From Candidatus Avidehalobacter gallistercoris (GTDB taxonomy: Bacteria > Bacillota > Dehalobacteriia > UBA4068 > UBA4997): DNA of 51,414 nucleotides. Below the pieces are notes generated by a model. The model ran no database searches, was not told where the DNA came from, and was given only the letters and a program-made list of their open reading frames with translations. The DNA lies in assembly GCA_018715045.1 (NCBI GenBank), contig DVMH01000005.1, positions 1 through 51,414 of the forward strand, given 5' to 3'. The translations under genes and the position numbers were made by a program. Positions 1 through 51,414 of this stretch are shown here, in pieces. Numbering within the stretch: position 1 is the first letter of the stretch; the number at the start of each line of letters is the position of its first letter.

Positions 1-228
1 GTTACGCCTGACGGCCTGCTGCTGCCGGAGGCGGACAGTCTGCAAATACCTGCGGCAGTGAGGGAGGTTTATTGTTTCAGGGAGAGTTCGGGCAGCTTCT
101 GTTATCCGGTCTGCCCACGTTGTCATATTACGATGGAGCGTGAATACCAAAATTATTGTGACCGCTGCGGTCAACGTCTTGATTGGAGTAATTACCCGTA
201 TATACAGGCTCGTGTGCAAAAAGGTTAA
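1..228 (+). CDS. C-terminal part of a zinc-ribbon protein (5' end outside window)
   Basis: Frame 1 is open from the first base to the TAA at 226-228, giving 75 residues. The tail contains CPRC, about 12 residues, then CDRC followed by GQRLDW. This Cys-x2-Cys/Cys-x2-Cys spacing is that of a small treble-clef or zinc-ribbon fold. Such tails with a GQRLDW-like ending are common on small accessory proteins of phages and integrative elements, but I cannot name the protein. No in-frame start is visible, so the N-terminus lies before the window. Confidence 0.55.
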   Translation, partial: VTPDGLLLPEADSLQIPAAVREVYCFRESSGSFCYPVCPRCHITMEREYQNYCDRCGQRLDWSNYPYIQARVQKG

Positions 229-324
229 GTTCTGGTATTTGTAATTGGACGCGTTAAGGTATTGAAGTAAACATACCAACATAACAAAATAATCCCGTCT
301 TTTGGCTGGGTTTTGTTTACACGA

Positions 325-39798: not shown

Positions 39799-40239
39799 AT
39801 GGAGAAATTGAACGCCAAACCGCTGGCCGACTTAAAGCCAAGCTCGGTGCAGCGCATGACCAGACAGCGCCAGGCCATCATAAGAGTGCTGGCCTCCACC
39901 AAGGAACACCCGACAGCGGAGGAAATACATGCGCAAGTTCGTGATGAGCTGCCTGATATCAGTATCGGCACTATATACCGCAATCTGCAAATGTTGCTGG
40001 CCGATGGGCTGGTGCAGGAAATATCACTGGGACGCTCCGGCGCCCGGTTTGATGCTAATCAGCAGCCGCACAGCCACTTCTTCTGCCGGAAGTGCGGCCG
40101 GGTTTATGATGTGCCGGCCTATGGAACGCCCCCAACGCCGGAGATAACGCGGCAGATACCGGGAAGACTTGATAGTCAGCGCACGGATTTTTTCGGCGTG
40201 TGCAGCGCTTGCCTGAAGCAGGCAAAACATAATGCTTGA
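39799..40239 (+). CDS. Fur-family metal or peroxide regulator
   Basis: A 146-residue Fur-family repressor. The winged helix includes RQRQAIIRVLASTKEHPTAEEIHAQV and ISIGTIYRNLQMLLADGLVQE. The metal domain has HSHFFCRKCG and CSAC, the two CxxC pairs of a structural zinc. The regulatory residues resemble PerR or Fur but cannot be told apart with confidence. It is preceded by the YlbF gene and followed by the TPR protein gene. Confidence 0.9.
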   Translation: MEKLNAKPLADLKPSSVQRMTRQRQAIIRVLASTKEHPTAEEIHAQVRDELPDISIGTIYRNLQMLLADGLVQEISLGRSGARFDANQQPHSHFFCRKCGRVYDVPAYGTPPTPEITRQIPGRLDSQRTDFFGVCSACLKQAKHNA

Positions 40240-40276
40240 ACTAAATAAATTTAATTTATCTGGAGGAAATTACAAT

Positions 40277-41299
40277 ATGTCGATTATGGGAATGCGTGAA
40301 TGGTTCCGCAAAAACAGAGTGCTCATGCTGGTTGTTTTCATACTGCTTCTGGCAGGTCTTTTGATTTCATACGGACACTTCGGCGGCAATACTACTTACA
40401 CCGCAGCTGATTATGAAAAGATGGTGGCCGATGCCAGAGAAGCTTATGCGGCAAACTCCAGCGACCCTGCTACTGTACAGGCTCTGGCCAGTATTTTGGC
40501 CGATTATGCCGCGTTTTTGAATGATGATAAGGCCGATCAAGAAACAGTGAAAGCTGTTGATGACGAGGCTCTGAAATATTACAACGAGTATTATGGATTG
40601 ATGGTTCTTGACGCCACCGAATCTTATCAGGCGGAACAGAATTATGCCAATGCTTATATGGTGGCTTCCTATTTGCAGCAGCGAGCGCAGGTACAGAGCA
40701 TGATGGACGGAATGGACGGTAAGGCTATCTCTGATCAAGCCAACCAATGGATGGTTACCGCCATGACCCATCGCATTGACGAACTGAACGCTGATCTGGC
40801 CGAAAATTCCACCGACCACACAATCATCGCCGATCTAGCCGATGCGACGGCGGCTTTGGCCTATTATCAGCATGAGTTGGATGCGGAAGTCGACATCGAC
40901 GCGGCTTATTTGGAAGCTATAGACCTTTGTGAGCAGGCCATTGAAAACTGCGGCAACGACGTTGAACCTGCCGTTAAGGCCAGCTATTATCAGAAAGCCG
41001 CCAACTATGCTGAAAACACAGGCAACAATGTGCTGGCAGAAGAATATTATCGCATGTCGCTTGAAACCGCACCGGCAGATTATGACGCCAACGTAGCGCT
41101 GGCCGCTTTTCTGCTGGGTGATAACCGCTACGATGAGACCATTGAGCTGCTGACGGCCTACCGCGAAACTTTATCCGATGACGACGCTAACGCCGCTAAC
41201 ATTGACAGCAGTATCGAATATGTTGAAGCGTTGAAAGAAGCCGCTGAAAACCCCGATACTGATACGGAAGACGATAATAACAGCGGTGACGCCAACTAA
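40277..41299 (+). CDS. Membrane-anchored TPR protein
   Basis: A 340-residue protein with one membrane helix near the N-terminus (about 14-33, VLMLVVFILLLAGLLISYG) and an outward acidic domain with TPR-like helical repeats (ANYAENTGNNVLAEEYYRMSLETAPADYDANVALAAFLLGDNRYDETIELL). The tail is Asp/Glu/Asn rich. It probably acts as a scaffold at the membrane; the partner is unknown. The ATG at 40277 follows GGAGG, while the frame is open back to 40232. Confidence 0.75.
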   Translation: MSIMGMREWFRKNRVLMLVVFILLLAGLLISYGHFGGNTTYTAADYEKMVADAREAYAANSSDPATVQALASILADYAAFLNDDKADQETVKAVDDEALKYYNEYYGLMVLDATESYQAEQNYANAYMVASYLQQRAQVQSMMDGMDGKAISDQANQWMVTAMTHRIDELNADLAENSTDHTIIADLADATAALAYYQHELDAEVDIDAAYLEAIDLCEQAIENCGNDVEPAVKASYYQKAANYAENTGNNVLAEEYYRMSLETAPADYDANVALAAFLLGDNRYDETIELLTAYRETLSDDDANAANIDSSIEYVEALKEAAENPDTDTEDDNNSGDAN

Positions 41300-41814
41300 A
41301 AGTTTCAGCTAAAATATCAGAGTGCGTTGCGTCATTGTATGCTTCGCACTCTTTTCTTACCGCCAATACTCACTATCATTTGCAACCTGCCGGACGAGCT
41401 GGACTTGGTATAACGCGATTTTAACGCCAAATTGCTGCCGGATCTCACAAGAAACTGCCAAATTGGCATTTGTCTGCTGCTGAATTGATACAATGTACGC
41501 TTAAAACCTGCACTTATGGCTGAACACACTGTAAACCTGTTCTCTGGATGCAGCATTTAAGCCTTGATTTTCCTGCGATGACAGCATACGTCAGGGATTA
41601 TTATGTTAAAATAGCAGCTTTCTTTACTATCGCATGGCTGGCAATGTAAGGCAACTCTGTCCTATCTGGAGCCAAGGACGGCTGGATATTTGAACGTACG
41701 GCCAAGTAATGCCAAAAGCAATTGAAAGTCAATGCCGTTGCGTAATGCACACTTGAGCATAAAGATGGTGAAAAAGCGTCCAGGTAAACTCTTAATCATA
41801 ATCTAGGCAAATCT
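41300..41814. other. 515-bp gap: terminator, then probably decayed sequence
   Basis: Apart from the terminator at 41319-41355 nothing is supported. Short frames on both strands are cut by stops and lack ribosome binding sites; a 74-codon minus-strand frame (41332-41556) resembles nothing I know. The stretch 41580-41800 has coding-like composition with many stops, which suggests an old pseudogene. Confidence 0.35.
41319..41355 (+). terminator. Terminator after the TPR protein gene
   Basis: AGAGTGCG and CGCACTCT pair over eight bases around an 18-nt loop, then TTTTC. Confidence 0.75.
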
Positions 41815-42924
41815 ATGATGAACAAACTGCTGCAATTTTTAAAAAACGATATTGTGTTGGCCTTATCCTGCCTGCTGGCCTTGGTTTCTGTTTGCGTTGT
41901 ACCGCCGAACCAAGCTTATTTGGGTTACATAGATTTCCGCACATTGGCTCTGCTATTCTCCTTGATGGCAATTATGGCAGGACTAAACCGGCTGGGCATA
42001 TTTAAATTGCTGGCAGCCTGGCTGCTAGGGCGGGTACAGACGGTGCGCGGCCTGCTGCTGACATTTATTCTGCTTTGTTATTTCAGCTCCATGATAATCA
42101 CCAATGATGTGGCCTTGCTGACATTTGTGCCGTTCACCATCGTTACACTGAAGCTGGCGGGCGAGAGCAAAAGGCTTATCTATACCGTGACGCTGGAAAC
42201 GGCGGCGGCCAATCTTGGAAGTATGCTGACGCCCATAGGCAACCCCCAAAACCTATATCTCTTTTCTTCATATGATATGAGCGTGGATGATTTCTTTTTA
42301 ACCATCGACCCATATGCTACGCTTTCGCTGGTATTGCTGCTGCTGGCAGCACTGCTTGCACCCAACACACCGCTGACGGTTAAGCAGGAGAAGCTGCCAA
42401 GGCCTAAGGAAAGGTGGCTGCTTTTTTTATATGGCGGGCTGTTCGCGTTGGCTCTGTGCTGTATTTTTCGCTTGCTGCCCCCTTATGTACTGCTGCCAAT
42501 AGTGCTTATATCATTGCTGTTGGTTGATCGCGCGACTCTTAAAGGAGTTGATTATGCACTTCTTTTAACATTTAGCTTTTTGTTCATTTTCATAGGCAAT
42601 CTTGGACAACTGCCCGATATTGCGGAATTCTTGCGACGCACAGTGACTGGCCATGAAGTGACAATGGCAGTGCTGGCCAGTCAGGTGTTTTCCAATGTTC
42701 CAGCGGCTATATTGCTCTCTGGCTTTACGGATAATGCTTCAGCACTGCTGGTAGGCGTAAATCTGGGCGGCCTCGGTACGCTGATTGCCTCGATGGCCAG
42801 TCTGATATCGCTCAAGTTTATTCAAAAAGAAGATGTGAACATAGGAAGCTATATTGCGGTATTTACCGCCGTAAACCTGGCTCTGCTGGCGGCTAACCTG
42901 GGCTTACATAGCCTTATTAATTAA
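41815..42924 (+). CDS. Anion permease of the SLC13/ArsB-NhaD (IT) superfamily
   Basis: A 369-residue integral membrane protein with about ten helices in two similar halves. SSMIITNDVALLTFVPFTI and, in the second half, SNVPAAILLSGFTD are the helix-breaking motifs of the ion-transporter superfamily (CitMHS/ArsB/SLC13). NLGSMLTPIGNPQN is typical. Substrate could be a dicarboxylate, sulfate or arsenite; no ars or citrate genes are adjacent. The ribosome binding site is weak; start ATG at 41815 or 41818. Confidence 0.82.
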   Translation: MMNKLLQFLKNDIVLALSCLLALVSVCVVPPNQAYLGYIDFRTLALLFSLMAIMAGLNRLGIFKLLAAWLLGRVQTVRGLLLTFILLCYFSSMIITNDVALLTFVPFTIVTLKLAGESKRLIYTVTLETAAANLGSMLTPIGNPQNLYLFSSYDMSVDDFFLTIDPYATLSLVLLLLAALLAPNTPLTVKQEKLPRPKERWLLFLYGGLFALALCCIFRLLPPYVLLPIVLISLLLVDRATLKGVDYALLLTFSFLFIFIGNLGQLPDIAEFLRRTVTGHEVTMAVLASQVFSNVPAAILLSGFTDNASALLVGVNLGGLGTLIASMASLISLKFIQKEDVNIGSYIAVFTAVNLALLAANLGLHSLIN

Positions 42925-43113: not shown

Positions 43114-43155
43114 AAGAGATGATGCAGTTCCTCTTAAGGAACTGCATCACCTCTT
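43114..43155 (-). terminator. Terminator of the cotJC gene
   Basis: TGATGCAGTTCC and GGAACTGCATCA pair perfectly, with an outer AAGAG/CTCTT stem. On the minus strand the hairpin is followed by TTTTGTTTTAT. It lies about 60 bases past the cotJC stop, so the truncated gene kept its native terminator. Confidence 0.85.
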
Positions 43156-43214: not shown

Positions 43215-43643
43215 CTATTTTGTCGGGAATTCTGGGTTAAAGGCATAGAAGTTTTTGCAGTTCAGACGGTCTTTGGTGCGCTCCAGCGCCTCGCCAAACC
43301 GTTGAAAATGCACGATTTCCCGCGCTCGCAGGAATTTGATCGGCTCAATGATATCGGGGTCGTCAACCAGCTTAAGAATATTATCGTAAGTGGTGCGTGC
43401 TTTCTGCTCTGCCGCCATATCTTCATGCAGGTCAGTGATAATATCACCCTTGGACTGGAAGTAGGATGCCGTAAAGGGTACACCGGCCGCTGCTACCGGG
43501 TAAATGCCGCTGGTATGGTCAACAAAGTAGTCGGCAAAGCCCTGTTCCTTAATCTGGTCAATAGTCAAGCCCTGCGTCAGCTGGAAAACCATTGCGCTGA
43601 TCATTTCCATATGCGCCAATTCTTCCGTACATGAATGATACAC
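43215..43643 (-). CDS. cotJC: Manganese catalase/CotJC, 3' part only (split by the mobile element)
   Basis: The 142 residues match CotJC-type manganese catalases from the first metal-ligand helix TEELAHMEM to the end: GVPFTASYFQSKGDIITDLHEDMAAEQKART and REIVHFQRFGEAL are the second ligand helices. The family is about 190 residues and normally has ~65 residues before TEELAH, with the first metal Glu; these are absent. Instead, the frame runs into the end of the serine recombinase gene, whose TAG overlaps the GTG by one base. So the 5' part was cut off by integration; it should lie at the far end of the element, beyond 51414. Confidence 0.85.
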   Translation of the reverse strand: MYHSCTEELAHMEMISAMVFQLTQGLTIDQIKEQGFADYFVDHTSGIYPVAAAGVPFTASYFQSKGDIITDLHEDMAAEQKARTTYDNILKLVDDPDIIEPIKFLRAREIVHFQRFGEALERTKDRLNCKNFYAFNPEFPTK

Positions 43644-45178
43644 TATACTTGTCTCGGCAACCGCGGTTGAATAGTTAGCTTCATGTCATCGGTGTGAACT
43701 TTGCGCGTCTGGCGGGTTGTTTTGCTGTATTCCGAGCGGGTCAGCACGGATTTGAGCAGGCTGTTTTTTTCCTCAACGGAGGAGTGGGGGTATAACTGCA
43801 AAACACGCTCTATTCGGGGGATAATCATTTGCTGGGCTTCTGCTATTGCTGCCTGCTGGTCGATTTCCTCCTGAACTTTGGAAATCTGCTGGCAAAGGTC
43901 GTCTTGCTGGCGACCCACATCGGCGCGGCGCTGTAAAAACTCCTCTGTGCTGTAAACGCCTTGCTCCAATAACTGATAAATGCGGGCGGATTGCTTTTCG
44001 AGCTGCTGCTGCTCCTTTTGCAGGTTGGCAAGAGTTTTCTCCAGTGGTACGGCCATAGGCAGCGGCTGTTGCTTGGCAATTTGGATTTTGTATCTTTTCA
44101 GCCAATTCCGCAGCACTCTTTGCAGTTCGTCTTCCACACGATGTTGGCTGCTGCCTACGGTGGGGCAGCCGGGTGTAAAGCACATCAGCATATCTGGCTT
44201 GCCGGGGCGGCGTGTCATTGGCTTGCCGCAATGGGCGCAAAACACCACGCCAGCCAGCGGGTTTTGTAATTTTCTATCAGCGCGAGCGCGTGGCGCTTTG
44301 TGCGCGTCAAGCTCCTGCTGCACCAAGTCAAACTGTTCTTGCGTGATAATCGCGGGGTGTATGCCCGGCGCCAAAATAATATTCTCACTAGCGGCGCGTG
44401 GGCGAGACCGCTTAATAATGCCGTTTTCTGCGGTTTTGCAAACTGCCCGTGCTCCCCAGCGAATCCACCCAGCATAAACCGGATTGGTGAGAATCTCGCG
44501 AACTACCGCATCAATCCATGGCTTGCCGGTGATGGTCGGCACCTTTAACTCATTCAAACGGTGGGCAATTTTGGTAGCGCCCAGTCCCTCTTTTGTGAAA
44601 AGATTGTATATCAGCTGAACATTGGGTGCGTTTTCGTCCGGCTCCAGCGTCCAGCCCTTTTGCCCGGTGAGTTTTATCCGGCGATAACCATACGGCGGGC
44701 GATTGCCAACATATTTGCCCTCTTGGCTGGAAGCTATGCGGCCACGCTGCTGCCGCTGGTTAATCATTTTGTATTCTCGTCGGCTCATAAACAGGCCAAA
44801 TTCAAAATATTCCTCGTCAAACTCGTTTGCAGGGTCGTATATTTTGGTTGGCGTTATAATTTTAGTACCGGAATATTTAAAGGCCTGCGCTACCAGACCT
44901 TGGTCGATGGTATCACCACGGGCAAGGCGGGTGATCTCCACCACCAGAACGCCTTGCCATGCTCCGGCTTCCACCTCGGCCAGTAACTTTTGCATTTGCG
45001 GGCGGCTGGCTATGGTTTCGCCGCTGACGACCTCGCGATAAATCTTGGTCAGATTGATGTTGAGACGCGCCGCCAGATGAATCAATTCCGCCTCGTGTCT
45101 GGCTAGAGTTTCGCCAGCTCCGTGAGCTTCGGCTTCTGCATCGGCTCGTGATTTTCTCAAATATGCACAATATGCAAT
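43643..45178 (-). CDS. Large serine recombinase (element integrase)
   Basis: This serine recombinase integrates and excises the element. The catalytic domain starts AYCAYLRKSRADAEAE (nucleophile Ser in RKSRAD), with VVSGETIASRPQMQKLL and VVEITRLARGD. A recombinase domain follows (PPYGYRR...), then a zinc ribbon (CAHCGKPM...CFTPGC) and a coiled coil. The open frame reaches back to 45256, but that part crosses a terminator-like hairpin and AAGGAGGGGG (45185-45194). Nine bases after this site is ATT at 45178, in frame, giving IAYCAYLRKSR. No ATG, GTG or TTG fits, so an ATT start is likely. Confidence 0.92.
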   Translation of the reverse strand: MAYCAYLRKSRADAEAEAHGAGETLARHEAELIHLAARLNINLTKIYREVVSGETIASRPQMQKLLAEVEAGAWQGVLVVEITRLARGDTIDQGLVAQAFKYSGTKIITPTKIYDPANEFDEEYFEFGLFMSRREYKMINQRQQRGRIASSQEGKYVGNRPPYGYRRIKLTGQKGWTLEPDENAPNVQLIYNLFTKEGLGATKIAHRLNELKVPTITGKPWIDAVVREILTNPVYAGWIRWGARAVCKTAENGIIKRSRPRAASENIILAPGIHPAIITQEQFDLVQQELDAHKAPRARADRKLQNPLAGVVFCAHCGKPMTRRPGKPDMLMCFTPGCPTVGSSQHRVEDELQRVLRNWLKRYKIQIAKQQPLPMAVPLEKTLANLQKEQQQLEKQSARIYQLLEQGVYSTEEFLQRRADVGRQQDDLCQQISKVQEEIDQQAAIAEAQQMIIPRIERVLQLYPHSSVEEKNSLLKSVLTRSEYSKTTRQTRKVHTDDMKLTIQPRLPRQV

Positions 45179-45202
45179 AGCGCACCCCCTCCTTAAAATT
45201 AT

Positions 45203-45228
45203 CTCCGCCCCGCAGCAGCAGGGCGGAG
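45203..45228 (-). terminator. Hairpin between the exonuclease-partner gene and the recombinase
   Basis: CTCCGCCC and GGGCGGAG flank a 10-nt loop; on the minus strand ATAATTTT follows. It comes 20 bases after the stop of the 45249-45788 gene and just before the recombinase ribosome binding site. Confidence 0.55.
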
Positions 45229-45248
45229 TATTTTGTTTGTCAATATAA

Positions 45249-45788
45249 TTAGTCAATATTCCGGTTTTTGCCGTAAAAAATCCGTCCAGCCTGTAAATTT
45301 TTGAAGTATGCGCAGTTAATGGATATTGCTAAGTCGTTAACAATACATTGCCTTGCATCAGAACATTGTATATACTTTGAGCAACAACCAAATATTTCAC
45401 TGCTGTAATACTTTTTGGCATAGTTATATAATGCGGTCACAACACAATCTAAGTTGCAGTCCAGATTAAAATAATGCGTTTGATACATATCTTCGCCGAC
45501 GATGCAAGGTGGCAACTGTTGTTCGGTTAGCCCGGCTTTTTTTAGCTCATCGTTTGCAACTTTTAAATAGGGGTTTCTGTCATTGCCGCGTCCGCGCAAC
45601 GTTATATAACAAGCAATATATCCAAACATAGATATAGACGCGCCGCTGGTTATTTCAGTAATACTAAGCAAACTGTCATTTTTGCCAAAATCCAAGTGAA
45701 ACTTATGTATAAATTCGTGTGCTATTTTGGCAAAGTCAAAATTTTCTTGCATCTGTGGTCTTGACTCTGCTGTTTTTTTTGTTGTCAT
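45249..45788 (-). CDS. Unrecognised protein: module shared with the neighbouring exonuclease, plus Cys-rich tail
   Basis: A 179-residue protein without a family name I know. Residues ~15-130 align by eye with the last ~115 residues of the exonuclease at 46994-48403: both have an LDFG motif, a MFG motif, RGR followed by P and a hydrophobic stretch, and a final A-Y-x-x-AKK. After AKK this protein adds EIFGCCSKYIQCSDARQC...NCAY...GRIFYGKNRN, with five or six cysteines fit to hold zinc or an Fe-S cluster. Its ATG overlaps the stop of the upstream exonuclease by four bases, so the pair is translated together. Confidence 0.7.
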   Translation of the reverse strand: MTTKKTAESRPQMQENFDFAKIAHEFIHKFHLDFGKNDSLLSITEITSGASISMFGYIACYITLRGRGNDRNPYLKVANDELKKAGLTEQQLPPCIVGEDMYQTHYFNLDCNLDCVVTALYNYAKKYYSSEIFGCCSKYIQCSDARQCIVNDLAISINCAYFKNLQAGRIFYGKNRNID

Positions 45789-46861
45789 ATACTAGCCCTC
45801 CCAATCCAGCTTTTTTGGATGGCTTCTTGTAATTCTGTGTGGTTATCATGTATCAATACCCAAAAATCATATTCTGATATGATTTTGATATTCCCACCTG
45901 CGGACTGTAAGGCTTCGGCCTTTAGTATCTTGTTACTTTTTTTGGATTGCGGTTTGCAAGAGTTGATACTGCCAATAATCAAATAATCTGTTTTGCCTGA
46001 TACATTGGCAAGGGGTATTCCACCAAAAAGCTTTATCTTCTCCAGTATATCTTGGCGGGTGGTAGAGTTAAAATCACCAGAAAGAACAAAACGTTTATTT
46101 TCAAAATTAGGCAACGGATAAGCCGCCGGTGTTTTACGTATTTTATCCCAATCCAAATGGTAATGCTGGGTTTTGTCCTGGATGCTGATTTTCTTTGCTT
46201 TTTTATAAAGCCGGGTGCGAGAGGCATCATCAACCAGAGAATCATTTATATCATAATCATCACCCGTTACATTATAGCATTGTTGGTTGTTACATTTGAC
46301 AATACCAGTGCGCAAATCAAATGTTTGAAAAAACTGTTCGGCAGTAGGTATGTTGAATAAATCCAGTATTTTATAAAATATTTTTAATGTGGCGAGCGCG
46401 TCTGAAGCTGCGTTATGATGTTCTAATTCAATATCAAACACCTTTGCCAGAAAATTTAATCTATAGCATTGTTTACCATTTTTGTCTTGTAAATTAGGCA
46501 ATATATTTTTTAATAGACTATAGGTGCAATAATAGTAAAATTGAAAACATGGCAAAGATTGTTGACCCAAAGAGCAACAAAAGACATCAACATCAAAGTT
46601 AGCGTTGTGTACTAGCACCAATGAGTTATTAAGCTTTGGCACTAGCTGCGGTAATAATTCTGCAAAAGTTGGAGCGTCGCTAACATCATCAGAGGTTATG
46701 CCGTGAATATTTATATTTTTACTGTCAAATTCGCATGGAACAGGGCGAATTAAATATTGCTCCGAACAAAAGTCGTTATCAGTTTTTTCGGCTATACCCA
46801 AAGCGCAGGCGCTGCTGCGACTATGGTTAGCCGTTTCAAAATCAATAGCAATCACTTTCAT
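45785..46861 (-). CDS. DnaQ-like 3'-5' exonuclease with BRCT domain
   Basis: A 358-residue protein. Residues 1-165 are a DEDDh exonuclease: ExoI AIDFETA (Asp6, Glu8), ExoII HNANFDVDVF and ExoIII HHNAASDA. The C-terminal ~95 residues are a BRCT domain (NFENKRFVLSGDF, LFGGIPLANVSGKTDYLIIG, IISEYDFW), as in bacterial ligase and exonuclease fusions that bind DNA ends. The middle 80 residues are unassigned. Its stop overlaps the next gene. It may trim or proofread DNA for the element. Confidence 0.88.
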   Translation of the reverse strand: MKVIAIDFETANHSRSSACALGIAEKTDNDFCSEQYLIRPVPCEFDSKNINIHGITSDDVSDAPTFAELLPQLVPKLNNSLVLVHNANFDVDVFCCSLGQQSLPCFQFYYYCTYSLLKNILPNLQDKNGKQCYRLNFLAKVFDIELEHHNAASDALATLKIFYKILDLFNIPTAEQFFQTFDLRTGIVKCNNQQCYNVTGDDYDINDSLVDDASRTRLYKKAKKISIQDKTQHYHLDWDKIRKTPAAYPLPNFENKRFVLSGDFNSTTRQDILEKIKLFGGIPLANVSGKTDYLIIGSINSCKPQSKKSNKILKAEALQSAGGNIKIISEYDFWVLIHDNHTELQEAIQKSWIGRASI

Positions 46862-46881
46862 AATTAAAACACCCTTTGTAA

Positions 46882-47014
46882 TTATCTTGCCAGTAGTGAA
46901 GAATTTGAATGCATAGATAAAGAAATAATACCGGCAAGTAGCGTATCATAAAATACATTTTCCGAAAGTATTTCTAAATCTTGTCCGGCTAGTTTATATG
47001 CTTCGGCCTTTTTT
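46882..47014 (-). pseudogene. Remnant of a third exonuclease-BRCT gene
   Basis: On the minus strand, one base out of frame with the end of the gene at 46994-48403, the sequence reads KKAEAYKLAGQDLEILSENVFYD and continues to LLAR and a stop. This is the end of a BRCT domain nearly identical at DNA level to codons inside that same gene (direct repeat 46923-47015 vs 47401-47493), then diverging. It has no start and looks like a tail left by recombination between paralogues. Confidence 0.65.
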
Positions 47015-47015
47015 A
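46923..47015. repeat. 93-bp direct repeat, copy 1
   Basis: It matches copy 2 at 47401-47493 (offset 478) with about seven differences, the middle ~50 bases being identical. Copy 1 spans the end of the exonuclease gene and the remnant below it. Confidence 0.85.
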
Positions 47016-48403
47016 GCGACGCTGTATATTGCCAGTATCAAATTCTCGAGTTTATCACTCATAATAAAATAATATGTGCGGTTTTTGTCTTTGCCGATAT
47101 CCCATATGGGAAGCCTTGAGATGTCTAGTCCAGTCTGTTCCAGTGTATTATATGTAATTGCCAGCACGGGTTTTTTTGTATTTCTTCCTCGCCAAATTGC
47201 ATGGCCGATGCGAGAGCCAAACATTAATATCGGAACCTTGCCCGATTGTAACTGCCGAATATCCAGATTAGCGTTGTCCACACCAAAATCTAAATCAAAT
47301 TGTGAAATAAATTCTTTTGTAAGTGTAAACAAATCCTTTGATTGTGATACCTTTTTTGTAATGCGTGCAGCTTTGGCAACAGACGAATTTGCAGAGAGGA
47401 AAATAATATCGTCAGGTAGCATATCATAAAATACATTTTCCGAAAGTATTTCTAAATCTTGTCCGGCTAGTTTATATGCTTCAGCTTTTTTTAATTTGTT
47501 GCTTTTCCCGTCTTTTACATTTTTTGCGTAATCTAAGTTTCCCATAATTAAGCAGTTGGTTTCCTTGGTAACACTGTTTTGGCATATGCCGCCAAGATTT
47601 GTAACAAGTTGGGCGGCAAAGATCCGCGTCATTTTTTCAAGTTTGCCGGTAAACACACAATGGCGACCGTACAAAGGGTTGTCAGGATTTTTAACATCAA
47701 TGTTTGGGTTAATGTTACGCAAATCACATTTATAATAATATTTGCTTCGTTTTTTGGATTTTAACTTAGAAACATCTATATTTTTTTGCTTGGCGTAGTT
47801 TAGCAAATACAAATAACAATCCGCCGTAGCTTTGCAATCTGCCAAAGCCCTGTGCGCTCCATTAACATTGATGCCATACAGCTTTACCAAATCCGCCAGC
47901 CGATGGTGGCGCTGTTCCGGGTACAACCAGCGAGAGAGCCGCATACTATCTACAAAATCATTTGAGAACGCAGGCAAACACAATATTTCAGCGTTGTCAT
48001 ATATAAAATTTACATCAAAATTAGCGTTATGACCCAAAAGCAGGCTGTCGCCTACGAAAGATAAAAACTGAGGCAAAGCACCGTCTATTCTAGGTGCGTC
48101 GGTCAGCATATCGTTGGATATACCTGTAAGCTCCGTAATAAAGCTTGGTATATCATAACCGGGGTTAACCAGCGTAGTAAATTCTGCTACAGGATTGTAA
48201 TCGTCATATCTTATAGCGCCAAGCTCAATTATGTCGTCGAAATTTGGGTCTAATCCTGTGGTTTCAATGTCAATAACAACAAAATCGCCACGGTCAACCA
48301 AAAGACTCTTGCCTTTGTTTTCTCGTTTTGGTTTTTGTCGTTCTTTTATTACAAATTCGTCATCTTCATAATCAACGTTAATATCAAATAGCTGTTTTTC
48401 CAT
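46994..48403 (-). CDS. DnaQ-like exonuclease-BRCT protein with fused C-terminal module (3' end recombined)
   Basis: A 469-residue protein. Residues ~35-205 are a DEDDh exonuclease: FVVIDIETTGL, LLLGHNANFDVNF and GAHRALADCKATAD. A BRCT domain follows (~245-325, GRHCVFTGKLEKM, TNLGGICQNSVTKETNCLIMG). The last ~115 residues are the module found separately in the gene at 45249-45788. It ends abruptly at SVAKKGRSI, just where the Cys-rich tail begins in the relative, because the frame enters an out-of-frame BRCT-tail repeat. So the present stop is the product of a rearrangement. Confidence 0.87.
   Translation of the reverse strand: MEKQLFDINVDYEDDEFVIKERQKPKRENKGKSLLVDRGDFVVIDIETTGLDPNFDDIIELGAIRYDDYNPVAEFTTLVNPGYDIPSFITELTGISNDMLTDAPRIDGALPQFLSFVGDSLLLGHNANFDVNFIYDNAEILCLPAFSNDFVDSMRLSRWLYPEQRHHRLADLVKLYGINVNGAHRALADCKATADCYLYLLNYAKQKNIDVSKLKSKKRSKYYYKCDLRNINPNIDVKNPDNPLYGRHCVFTGKLEKMTRIFAAQLVTNLGGICQNSVTKETNCLIMGNLDYAKNVKDGKSNKLKKAEAYKLAGQDLEILSENVFYDMLPDDIIFLSANSSVAKAARITKKVSQSKDLFTLTKEFISQFDLDFGVDNANLDIRQLQSGKVPILMFGSRIGHAIWRGRNTKKPVLAITYNTLEQTGLDISRLPIWDIGKDKNRTYYFIMSDKLENLILAIYSVAKKGRSI
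47401..47493. repeat. 93-bp direct repeat, copy 2
   Basis: This copy lies inside the exonuclease gene and encodes the end of its BRCT domain. The pair explains how the gene's 3' end was replaced. Confidence 0.85.
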
Positions 48404-48549
48404 GGCTGATTACATCCCTTTACTTTTAAACTCAACAAAAATTACATTGCCGACTGCTTTTCTTTTGACTTGTCCGCTGTTTCATCCGCCTGCTGGCAGC
48501 CGCACATAGCACAATGATAATTATATCTAACTTAGCTTTCAATTCAAAT

Positions 48550-49221
48550 TTACTCATCCTCTATACAATCTTTGCAGGGGAGTAATTTGTAGAATGCTAT
48601 ATCTTCTTGCGTAACCGGCGCATACTCCCGATTTTTTAGATGCGAACAGCTGATTATGTGATAACGGTTGCCGCTGGGAGTTCGGTAGTATTGCACATCG
48701 GTATTTGCAATAACGGTTGTTGATACATTATCAGGCACTGCTTCTGGCGGCTGTGACGGGGTGGCGTTCTGCGTGCTGATAGCGCCAAGCATAAGAACCA
48801 GCAACAGGATAACGCCGATTATAAACTGCTTGCTGTATTGCCGCCAAAAGATGACCAGCCTAACCAAGCCTGACAGCATATTAGCTTCGCGCTCTGCTGC
48901 GCGGCTATAATCTGCTGTAATACCGCGCAAATGGTGCTCTAATGCTATGTGGCATATTTCATGCAGCAGGGCAGATGCAGCTTGCGAAATTGTCATATTG
49001 GCAAAATCTACAAAGACAATATGCAGATCGCCACGGCAATAAACAAACAATTGGTGTTTTGCAGCTATCTCTGTACGTTTCAGAAGGCGAAATGCTTCAT
49101 CGTCGAAATGTTTTATCTCCCAGCCCGCCTTGGTAAGATATTGCTCTAAATTCTTCAGCCGGACGCTGTTGTTTAAATCTGTGCCGAGTTTCTGTGCAGT
49201 GCGTAAAATGCTTTGTACCAT
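48550..49221 (-). CDS. ImmA/IrrE-type metallopeptidase with membrane helix and zinc-ribbon-like tail
   Basis: A 223-residue protein. The N-terminal half has the zinc protease motif HEICH (ALLHEICHIALEHH) followed by a Glu in AAEREANML, as in ImmA, which cuts phage repressors to trigger excision. Unusually a membrane helix follows (~130-147, FIIGVILLLVLMLGAIS), then a linker and a C-terminal motif TPSGNRYHIISCSHLKN...PCKDC that resembles the small Cys/His domain on many secreted Gram-positive proteins. It is encoded just below the repressor at 49284-49838, its likely target. Confidence 0.82.
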   Translation of the reverse strand: MVQSILRTAQKLGTDLNNSVRLKNLEQYLTKAGWEIKHFDDEAFRLLKRTEIAAKHQLFVYCRGDLHIVFVDFANMTISQAASALLHEICHIALEHHLRGITADYSRAAEREANMLSGLVRLVIFWRQYSKQFIIGVILLLVLMLGAISTQNATPSQPPEAVPDNVSTTVIANTDVQYYRTPSGNRYHIISCSHLKNREYAPVTQEDIAFYKLLPCKDCIEDE

Positions 49222-49283
49222 TGCGTAACCACCCCAAATAAATATTTTTATCTAGGGTGTTCGACAAAATATTACAAAATCAT

Positions 49284-49838
49284 TTAATCTAGGTTATCAA
49301 AATCAATGGTATCTTTTTCCAGCAGTTTTTTGGCCGCCTCCACTTCTTCATCAGTGGGGTATACAACAGGGGTTGGATTGTCCTTGCCTTTATACGCTAT
49401 CAGCCGTGCCGCTCTCTGTTCTCTTGCTTCTATCTCGGCCAACCGGCGGTGTGCTTCATTGATGTCTGGTAAATCATTAACAGCTGGCGGTTGCTGCATA
49501 GCCAGTAAGGTATCTATTAGGCTATCTATCGCGCTTTTGCCTTCAGGGGTAAGAGTGCGATATTTTTTTATATGGAGTTTTTCTTCTGCTAGCAAGAATA
49601 TGTCTGTGTTTGTTGCCGTGGCGCTGGTATCATCTTTTTGCAATGCAAGATAAAAGTAATCTAATGATACACCAAGGTGCTTAGCAACTTTATATAGGTC
49701 TGAAATGTTAACACTCATACTATCGCGTCTAATTATACTATACAAAGTAGATGTCGAAACCCCAGTAGCCAGAGAAACTTCGTTAACATTGCTGCCCTTT
49801 TCGTATATTAATTTTTTTAATACTGCACCAATGCCCAT
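49284..49838 (-). CDS. XRE-family repressor
   Basis: A 184-residue phage-type repressor. The helix-turn-helix is residues ~6-62 (NVNEVSLATGVSTSTLYSIIRRD, ISDLYKVAKHLGVSLDYF). The rest is helical and charged, with an acidic C-terminus, and lacks the Ser-Lys peptidase of LexA-type repressors, so a separate protease (ImmA-like gene downstream) would be needed to remove it. It is divergent from the Cro-like gene at 49991. Confidence 0.88.
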   Translation of the reverse strand: MGIGAVLKKLIYEKGSNVNEVSLATGVSTSTLYSIIRRDSMSVNISDLYKVAKHLGVSLDYFYLALQKDDTSATATNTDIFLLAEEKLHIKKYRTLTPEGKSAIDSLIDTLLAMQQPPAVNDLPDINEAHRRLAEIEAREQRAARLIAYKGKDNPTPVVYPTDEEVEAAKKLLEKDTIDFDNLD

Positions 49839-49875
49839 AAATTCACCTCCATCTAAGAGTTAATATATATGGTAA

Positions 49876-49887
49876 ACAAATGTTTGT
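49876..49887. promoter_or_regulatory. Possible operator half-dyad near the repressor gene
   Basis: AAACA and TGTTT flank two bases about 40 bases upstream of the repressor start. It may be a second, weaker binding site in the divergent control region. Confidence 0.3.
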
Positions 49888-49898
49888 CAACAAAAATT

Positions 49899-49974
49899 TG
49901 TGCAAATGCAAAAAAAAGCTTGACATATTATGCAATCGCGCATATAATGATGATAGAAATTATGCATTTGCACA
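49899..49974. promoter_or_regulatory. Inverted-repeat operator around the early promoter
   Basis: TGTGCAAATGCA (49899-49910) and its exact reverse complement TGCATTTGCACA (49963-49974) lie 52 bases apart on either side of the rightward promoter, a layout that suits looping or double occupancy by the repressor or the Cro-like protein. Confidence 0.65.
49920..49948 (+). promoter_or_regulatory. Rightward early promoter of the element
   Basis: TTGACA (49920-49925), 17 bases, TATAAT (49943-49948): a consensus promoter driving the Cro-like gene and the small genes after it. Confidence 0.85.
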
Positions 49975-49990
49975 GATTGGAGGTATGTTT

Positions 49991-50194
49991 ATGGCTAAGG
50001 GTATTAAGTCAGCAATGGAAGCAAAGCGAATAGGTATAGATGTTATCGCTGCCGTATTGGGAATACATCGTAACTCGGCCTCCAATAAGGTAAACGGTGT
50101 TACCCAGTTCACCGTTGAAGAGGCCTTTAAGCTTAAGGCGGAGTTGTTCCCTGAGTACGATAGCGATTATCTTTATACAGATTTGCCGAATTGA
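49991..50194 (+). CDS. Small Cro-like DNA-binding protein
   Basis: The ATG at 49991, seven bases after GGAGG, gives 67 residues; the frame is open to 49880 but that part covers the promoter. MAKGIKSAMEAKRIGIDVIAAVLGIHRNSASNKVNGVTQFTVEEAFKL has the shape of a lambda-repressor-like helix-turn-helix. Being divergent from the repressor, it is the likely Cro counterpart. Confidence 0.75.
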   Translation: MAKGIKSAMEAKRIGIDVIAAVLGIHRNSASNKVNGVTQFTVEEAFKLKAELFPEYDSDYLYTDLPN

Positions 50195-50208
50195 AAGGAG
50201 ATGAGAGA

Positions 50209-50376
50209 ATGAAACGCGGAAGATGGAAAATGAAAACCGTATGGGCATACTTAGATGGAAAGAAGCTTGTCGATGTGGTTCAAGCAGCGTTGGACAACAA
50301 TATGACGACTGACGACATGAAAAATTTGCTCATAAGGGAAAATCCGGGTCACGAGGTGACATTCAAAGTTCAGTGA
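50209..50376 (+). CDS. Small hypothetical protein
   Basis: ATG at 50209 eight bases after AAAGGAG gives 55 residues (MKRGRWKMKTVWAYLDGKKL...). The fold looks alpha-beta; no family recognised. It is part of the early gene string of the element. Confidence 0.5.
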   Translation: MKRGRWKMKTVWAYLDGKKLVDVVQAALDNNMTTDDMKNLLIRENPGHEVTFKVQ

Positions 50377-50392
50377 GAGGAGATGAAGCGAA

Positions 50393-50569
50393 ATGCGGAC
50401 AGTTCGCATTGACCCGAGTAAAGTGCCGGCCGCAGACTGGGAAATAGCCTGCCGTGTGCTGCAAAACAGCATACGCCTTGCGCTGGCAGACCCGGAAAAG
50501 CGGGCGGATTATGAGAGATGGAAACGGGAGCAGGAGCAGGAGCAGGAGAAAACAAAGGAGGGGCAATGA
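50393..50569 (+). CDS. Small hypothetical protein with charged repeat tail
   Basis: ATG at 50393, after GAGAGGAG, gives 58 residues (MRTVRIDPSKVPAADWEIACRVL...). It ends in a run of Glu-Gln pairs and lysines. No family recognised. Its TGA overlaps the next ATG (CAATGA). Confidence 0.5.
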   Translation: MRTVRIDPSKVPAADWEIACRVLQNSIRLALADPEKRADYERWKREQEQEQEKTKEGQ

Positions 50570-50631
50570 ATACAGAGATAACGAAACATCCGCTTTGGCA
50601 GCGAGATGTGAAAACGCTCAAACGACGATAG
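50566..50631 (+). CDS. Possible 21-codon ORF
   Basis: The ATG overlaps the previous stop and follows AAAGGAGGGG, an excellent ribosome binding site; the product would be MNTEITKHPLWQRDVKTLKRR. It may be a real micro-protein or a leader that couples translation to the next gene. Confidence 0.3.
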   Translation: MNTEITKHPLWQRDVKTLKRR

Positions 50632-50664
50632 AGCAATTTGAAAAGGTGGTAGGAGGCGATCAAG

Positions 50665-50877
50665 ATGCCAGAAACAGCAGGCGAGAGCGTAAAGGTTTTC
50701 TATTTATGCGACGGCAGAAGGCCGGAATGTACTGGAAAATGCTATCTGCATAGCGAGAGCGATTTGCCTTGCAAGCACACAAGCGACATAAACTACGCCA
50801 GAAACTTTAGCAAATATGTCGATTGCGACGACAAGCGCATCGTTTATCAGGAAATTGACGCAAGCAACAGGGCATAA
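50665..50877 (+). CDS. Small cysteine-containing phage-type protein
   Basis: A 70-residue protein with VFYLCDGRRPECTGKCYLH and LPCKHTSDINYARNF. Proteins with this 'C-x5-ECTGKC...CKHT.DI.YA..F' pattern are frequent among early genes of Clostridial prophages. Four to five cysteines may bind zinc. Function unknown. Confidence 0.6.
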   Translation: MPETAGESVKVFYLCDGRRPECTGKCYLHSESDLPCKHTSDINYARNFSKYVDCDDKRIVYQEIDASNRA

Positions 50878-50882
50878 AAAAC

Positions 50883-50914
50883 GCGCCCCGTCTGGCGGCA
50901 ACCGGACGAAGCGC
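50883..50914 (-). terminator. Hairpin with T-run on the minus strand
   Basis: GCGC..CGTCTGG and CCGGACG..GCGC pair around a 6-nt loop. On the minus strand TTTTTT follows, on the plus strand it does not. It sits after the gene at 50665-50877 and may be bidirectional. Confidence 0.5.
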
Positions 50915-51025
50915 AAATGCGAATAAAAACAACAGTATTATAGCACATTCGGTTCGCCGCGTCAAGTGGACGGGCTAGACCGCATAGGATTTAAGGCCAA
51001 CATAATCTGACAGGAGGAGCGACAT

Positions 51026-51289
51026 ATGGGAAAATGTGAGGGTTGTCCATACAAAACCTGCATTGGGCCGATAAATTGCAATGACCCTTGCCGTGGCCAG
51101 GTCGTCGAAAGGTATTTTCTGCCCAGCGGTACGGAGGTTGTCATTATGGATGGAGCGTATCGCAATAAAACGCCCGAGCAGCTAAAAATGGTTTGGCAGG
51201 GAGTGGTAGATGCGCACATGGCTGTGGCTAATAGGATTGCGCGAGATGAACAGAGAAAGCAGAACGCTTTAAACGCTAGCGGAGAGTAA
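51026..51289 (+). CDS. Small protein with N-terminal cysteine cluster
   Basis: An 87-residue protein starting MGKCEGCPYKTCIGPINCNDPC, five to six cysteines within 22 residues, then an alpha-helical tail. Possible zinc- or Fe-S-binding protein of the element; no family recognised. AGGAGG precedes the ATG by nine bases. Confidence 0.55.
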   Translation: MGKCEGCPYKTCIGPINCNDPCRGQVVERYFLPSGTEVVIMDGAYRNKTPEQLKMVWQGVVDAHMAVANRIARDEQRKQNALNASGE

Positions 51290-51291
51290 AG

Positions 51292-51316
51292 AGAGCCGCC
51301 GTGCTGGCGGCTCTTT
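51292..51316 (+). terminator. Terminator-like hairpin
   Basis: AGAGCCGCC and GGCGGCTCT pair over nine bases around a 5-nt loop, followed by TT only. Confidence 0.55.
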
Positions 51317-51356
51317 GCCGCAGTGGTGGACAAGCTGATTAAGGGAGGACGAGTAT

Positions 51357-51414
51357 ATGACGACAAAAAACTGGCGGCTGGCATTGGCCGCGCTGACGCT
51401 GCTTATTCTGTGGA
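51357..51414 (+). CDS. Start of a membrane or secreted protein (cut by window end)
   Basis: AAGGGAGG precedes the ATG. The 19 visible residues (MTTKNWRLALAALTLLILW) are a positively charged start plus a hydrophobic stretch, as in a signal peptide or anchor. The rest is outside the window. Confidence 0.5.
   Translation, partial: MTTKNWRLALAALTLLILW

Follow-up and report, generated by a model that had tools for sequence, protein, structure and literature searches.

The manganese-catalase gene cotJC is split by a serine-integrase element and cut at a second site in Candidatus Avidehalobacter gallistercoris

The 51,414-nucleotide stretch of DNA analysed here (the window) is the whole of contig C38 in a 1.45-Mb, 38-contig draft assembly. 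It contains the 3' part of cotJC, the manganese-catalase gene of the spore coat, next to a large serine integrase, and the 5' part of the gene lies on another contig of the same genome, where it ends at a second attachment site. We suggest, with a probability of about 0.7, that cotJC is split in this genome by two elements of the skin type and is rejoined by their excision. The window element would be a prophage-like intervening element put into codon ~63 by its own large serine integrase, and a second element would occupy codon ~32 of the same gene. The relevant features of the window are as follows.

39799-42924, plus strand: host DNA flanking cotJC on its 3' side, with genes for a Fur-like regulator, a TPR-like protein and a transporter (named by eye from their sequences), collinear with contig C13 of genus-mate G001
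43114-43155, minus strand: intrinsic terminator of cotJC with a stem of 19 pairs and, after it, a T-rich tail (z = -8.4)
43215-43628, minus strand: cotJC 3' exon, residues 63 (the T of TEELAH) to the end, from Pfam Mn_catalase and identity to genus-mates
43600-43650, minus strand: element/cotJC junction (attachment site A), with homology to intact cotJC from ~43628 and the same junction position in G001 and G003
43643-45178, minus strand: large serine integrase of the site-A clade (Pfam Resolvase, Recombinase and Zn_ribbon_recom; phrog_95 integrase; tree)
45203-45228, minus strand: terminator-like hairpin directly 5' of the integrase Shine-Dalgarno sequence (z = -2.9)
45249-51414, no strand assigned: remaining assembled element (two exonuclease-BRCT proteins, HTH repressor, small open reading frames), the contig ending inside the element

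The catalase open reading frame (43215-43643, minus strand) matches Mn_catalase with E=1.7e-30 but covers only profile positions 63-197 of 284, and the exon is 84-88% identical to the intact or rejoined cotJC of genus-mates. Intact genus-mates carry 62 residues upstream of TEELAH which the window frame lacks, close to the ~65 missing N-terminal codons estimated in an earlier, sequence-only reading of this DNA. That reading also took TEELAH to be the first metal helix; the conserved part indeed starts there, but by homology the motif supplies the second and third ligands, the first (E35) belonging to the missing part. As it had further noticed, the terminator of the gene is intact, and the frame shares one base, TAGTG, with the recombinase frame (43643-45256, also on the minus strand). 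Since its GTG has no Shine-Dalgarno sequence discernible by eye, we regard the frame as a 3' exon and not as the start of a gene. Host DNA collinear with the cotJC 3' flank of G001 lies below 43215, and the exact crossover at site A is not fixed because the other junction of the window element is unassembled.

The adjoining integrase contains all three domains of large serine integrases and is 65% and 58% identical to the site-A integrases of G001 and G003, respectively, which bears out the earlier proposal that an integrase-carrying element splits the gene. Its mechanically called frame has 537 codons from a TTG at 45256. In an alignment with relatives (window 45170-45180), however, an ATT stands where G001 and G003 have ATG, and this ATT near 45178, behind AAGGAGG, is probably the true start; it possibly weakens translation of the integrase. 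In G001 a hairpin (L034 13875-13945) pairs the integrase Shine-Dalgarno sequence (CTCCTGTA/TACAGGAG) and could possibly serve translational control of the integrase; the terminator-like hairpin of the window sits at the corresponding place. The ~7.8 kb of the window element that are assembled contain no phage structural genes. Between 45249 and 48403 there are two adjacent exonuclease-BRCT proteins plus a third open reading frame (45249-45788) which by eye resembles the C-terminal part of the larger of the two, as would result from the splitting of a duplicated gene. Positions 1-229, at the left edge of the window, look like the end of a second, related element, and 183 bases of it (47-229) are 98% identical to the element sequence that terminates contig C22.

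It is this contig that carries the 5' piece of cotJC (C22:26072-26173; residues 1-34 aligned), directly behind cotJB with cotJA upstream, and the genes upstream of the piece match the cotJ regions of G007, G001 and G002. The homology to cotJC ends after ...QYGG and is followed by GGTGGTCTAAATGCCAATAA, which resembles the site-C junction of G005, GGCGGTCTAAACCTCAATAA. A 5' half had been predicted to exist and to end in a DIGTEE-like segment; the half is present in the same genome, but it stops at codon ~32 rather than ~62, at a second attachment site, and does not have the predicted ending. With the 5' piece ending at codon ~32 and the 3' exon starting at ~63, cotJC is thus cut at two sites in this genome, and a single excision would not restore it. 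Searches of the assembly returned no cotJC copies beyond these two pieces, no ~30-codon middle exon (residues ~33-62; protein and DNA searches) and no site-C integrase at E<=1e-30. The far end of the window element, beyond which the 5' half had been expected, is likewise absent from the assembly, the contig stopping at 51414, while C22 runs ~345 bases into its element and ends in the 98% repeat of window 47-229, which is likely the reason for the assembly break.

Relatives show what the undisturbed and the rejoined gene look like. Among nine genomes of the genus, all of them draft, multi-contig assemblies, cotJC is intact in three (G002, G007 and G008), split in five and without a match in G006. 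The splits are at C and A in G000, at A in G001, at A and B in G003, at B in G004 and at C in G005. Intact genus-mates, a comparison proposed in the earlier reading, have no element in cotJC. The anticipated order of 5' half, element and 3' half in the same orientation, with a short core repeat, is found at the site of the window in G001 and G003, where the parts lie 32.4 kb and 3.3 kb apart, respectively, with a site-A integrase beside the 3' part; in G005 they are 40 kb apart. Excision in silico at the shared cores yields a cotJC of ~200 codons in G001, G003 (two excisions), G004 and G005. The claim that excision rebuilds the gene is supported in silico by G001 and G003 at the same site, but one event would not suffice in the window genome. 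The prophage at site A of G001 includes terminase, portal and tape measure genes, and in the G003 element the only recognised genes encode the integrase, an HTH protein and a histidine-kinase-like ATPase. For site A of G003 the reconstructed attP, TGTACCAAC-GA-GTTGGTACA, is a near-perfect dyad (0/500 shuffles); the same test was marginal for G005 site C and, with the half-length used, not significant for G001 site A and the site-B elements. In G003 a GerA germination gene adjoins cotJ. In 10 of 10 genomes of the family sigK is uninterrupted and above the NCBIfam cut-off, and these genomes have further sporulation-sigma-like matches, one pair being adjacent as sigE and sigG are.

The evidence on whether such a gene is kept in use while split comes from another family. 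Three species (G012, G015 and G017) share a collinear element of 4.4-4.7 kb at site A, the site of the window, with ~73-77% nucleotide identity in the main aligned blocks, and on these alignments the element is most likely older than the divergence of the three species. In the comparison of G012 with G017 the 3' exon differs by 47 synonymous and 0 nonsynonymous changes and the 5' exon by 26 synonymous and 2 nonsynonymous changes, and excision in silico restores the reading frame in both; the 3' exon of G015 departs near its end, possibly through a frameshift or an assembly error. These counts argue strongly that cotJC has been under purifying selection while split. The element (L205 5160-9878 in G012; L206 and L207) encodes the integrase and two collagen-like proteins, one of them weakly matching the BclA C-terminus at a score under the curated cut-off, and no phage structural genes were recognised in it. 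In all three species a sigma-K-type promoter, CACCTTGGGGACAAAC(C/T)TTTCATATAATA, lies upstream of the collagen genes, and a sigma-E-like promoter stands before the integrase and a small open reading frame ahead of it (68 aa), a candidate directionality factor. Taken together, the comparative evidence for rejoining during sporulation in this group is strong.

For the window genome we propose that, as long as both elements are present, cotJC would yield only fragments, each lacking part of the metal site. Precise excision by the integrases, aided by a directionality factor, would remove both elements, most likely in the sporulating mother cell, and restore the cotJABC operon; the middle exon would lie between the elements. 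We infer the developmental trigger because another element inserted at this site has conserved sigma-E- and sigma-K-like promoters. A search of the elements of the window, G001 and G003 themselves gave no sporulation-type promoters beyond chance; the single sigma-K-like match of the window element lies inside a gene (0.36 expected). The want of a standout promoter counts against our proposal, as do the unassembled middle exon and far end of the element and the ATT start of the integrase. Loss of cotJC could also be tolerated, since B. subtilis cotJC mutants are mentioned, by way of a citation in PMC12122855, as having no apparent defect.

Could the elements then be ordinary temperate phages which use a dispensable conserved gene as their target, excise only on induction and leave cotJC off in lysogens? 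The large elements of G001 and G005, the former with structural genes, would fit this, as would the missing sporulation promoter in the window element. Moreover, G008 is intact though close to the split G004 (dS 0.19), from which we conclude that integration is dynamic. However, phages of this kind would not readily explain an element that is shared vertically by G012, G015 and G017 and has no recognised phage structural genes, the strong purifying selection on its flanking exons while split, or its conserved sporulation-type promoters. We therefore consider this alternative unlikely, though the most probable of the alternatives.

Less likely still is that cotJC of the window genome has already lost its function because the middle exon was deleted by recombination, either within the elements or between the two. 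The exon is missing from an assembly that is 95% complete and the start codon of the integrase is altered. Then again, both contigs end inside elements, where assemblies break, C22 doing so in the 98% repeat of window 47-229, and exons 1 and 3 show no interruption and a dN much lower than dS. In the genus comparisons, though, low dN/dS could date from before the insertion, selection while split being tested only by the G012 group. That the pieces are translated separately and act as a split protein would agree with purifying selection on split exons, but it is very improbable: the 3' exons have no obvious start signals, the 5' exons run into element-derived tails, the metal ligands are distributed among the pieces, and a middle exon of 30-38 codons is implausible on its own. 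A misassembly or binning artefact, conceivable as all genus genomes seen are multi-contig drafts, is hardly credible given the same sites and architecture in independent genomes and IMG/VR records and the synteny on both flanks.

The two-element split which we favour for the window genome belongs to a wider pattern. Across relatives cotJC is cut at three fixed sites, C at codon ~30, A at codon ~63 and B at codon ~136, and in some relatives it is in three pieces. Mapped by homology with solved manganese catalases, all three sites would lie at the motifs of E35, E65/H68 and E136, which we take to be the known metal ligands of this family. In the tree the integrases fall into four clades, by target site and with a separate clade for the G012 type; support is 1.0 for the site-A clade and low (0.45) for the site-C clade as a whole. 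At the level of the order, the cut is at A in G012, G015 and G017 and at C in G013 and G014, and the middle exon alone was detected in G028; in G036, which belongs to a different family of the class, the gene is cut at A and its parts lie 22 kb apart; G039, with two partial cotJC matches on short contigs, was left out of the counts. In IMG/VR, 46 contigs carry cotJC pieces that end mostly at the same three places, their proportions meaning little because the peptide patterns used favour contigs with residues 1-8 or 59-65. One virus contig, L187 (1-10746), has in order a site-C integrase, exon 29-65, an element of ~9 kb with a site-A integrase, exon 61-136 and a site-B-like junction, an arrangement which implies a cotJC in four pieces with all three sites occupied. 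L160 and L166 hold cotJC pieces (34-170 and 23-124, respectively) beside integrases of other types, and these pieces may end at additional attachment sites. The earlier reading recognised a genuine split gene and the right kind of explanation; what goes beyond it is the second cut within this genome, the pattern of three sites across relatives and the long-standing split with sporulation-type promoters in another family.

Intervening elements in sporulation genes are known as skin (sigK), vfbin (spoVFB), vrin (spoVR), SPbeta (spsM), gin (gerE) and yin (yabG); those of the skin type have a serine recombinase, gene halves in the same orientation and a short core repeat, restore the frame by excision, and occur in phage-sized and reduced versions (PMC4191935, PMC5595907, PMC10747680). 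The window element resembles them in its position inside the coding sequence of a sporulation gene and in the large serine recombinase at its edge, and the elements of G001, G003 and G005 in their same-orientation parts with a shared core. Different from these named elements, however, the target is cotJC, with three fixed sites, four integrase clades and several elements at once, and one reduced element carries collagen/BclA-like genes. The interruption elements of heterocysts in nifD/nifH, of which Rivularia nifD has four (PMC4874684), likewise interrupt a developmental gene and can be several per gene, but they concern cyanobacterial nitrogen-fixation genes and the heterocyst rather than the mother cell. 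The C. difficile prophage phi027 is also found at a CotJC-like gene but is described as adjacent to it and not as splitting it (PMC11222575, PMC12122855). In the open-licence literature we found no description of cotJC splitting as an outcome of integration, the named targets being sigK, spoVFB, spoVR, spsM, gerE and yabG.

Few sporulation genes are known to be put back together through DNA excision; our work adds to them what appears to be an unreported target and predicts the exact cotJC junctions. It also matters for annotation, since fragments currently labelled as truncated catalases are probably separate exons of a single gene. With an intact gene, a full prophage and a reduced element, cotJC provides in a single gene a comparative series for how a phage insertion becomes a developmental switch. 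We think it somewhat better than an even bet that serine integrases of at least four clades have repeatedly targeted cotJC at three metal-ligand motifs, that in some spore formers the gene is kept in three or four pieces and needs several precise excisions in the mother cell, and that some of the elements are now vertically inherited development cassettes with BclA-like spore-surface genes. Our findings also suggest that gene reassembly occurs more often in uncultured gut spore formers than the few known cases imply.
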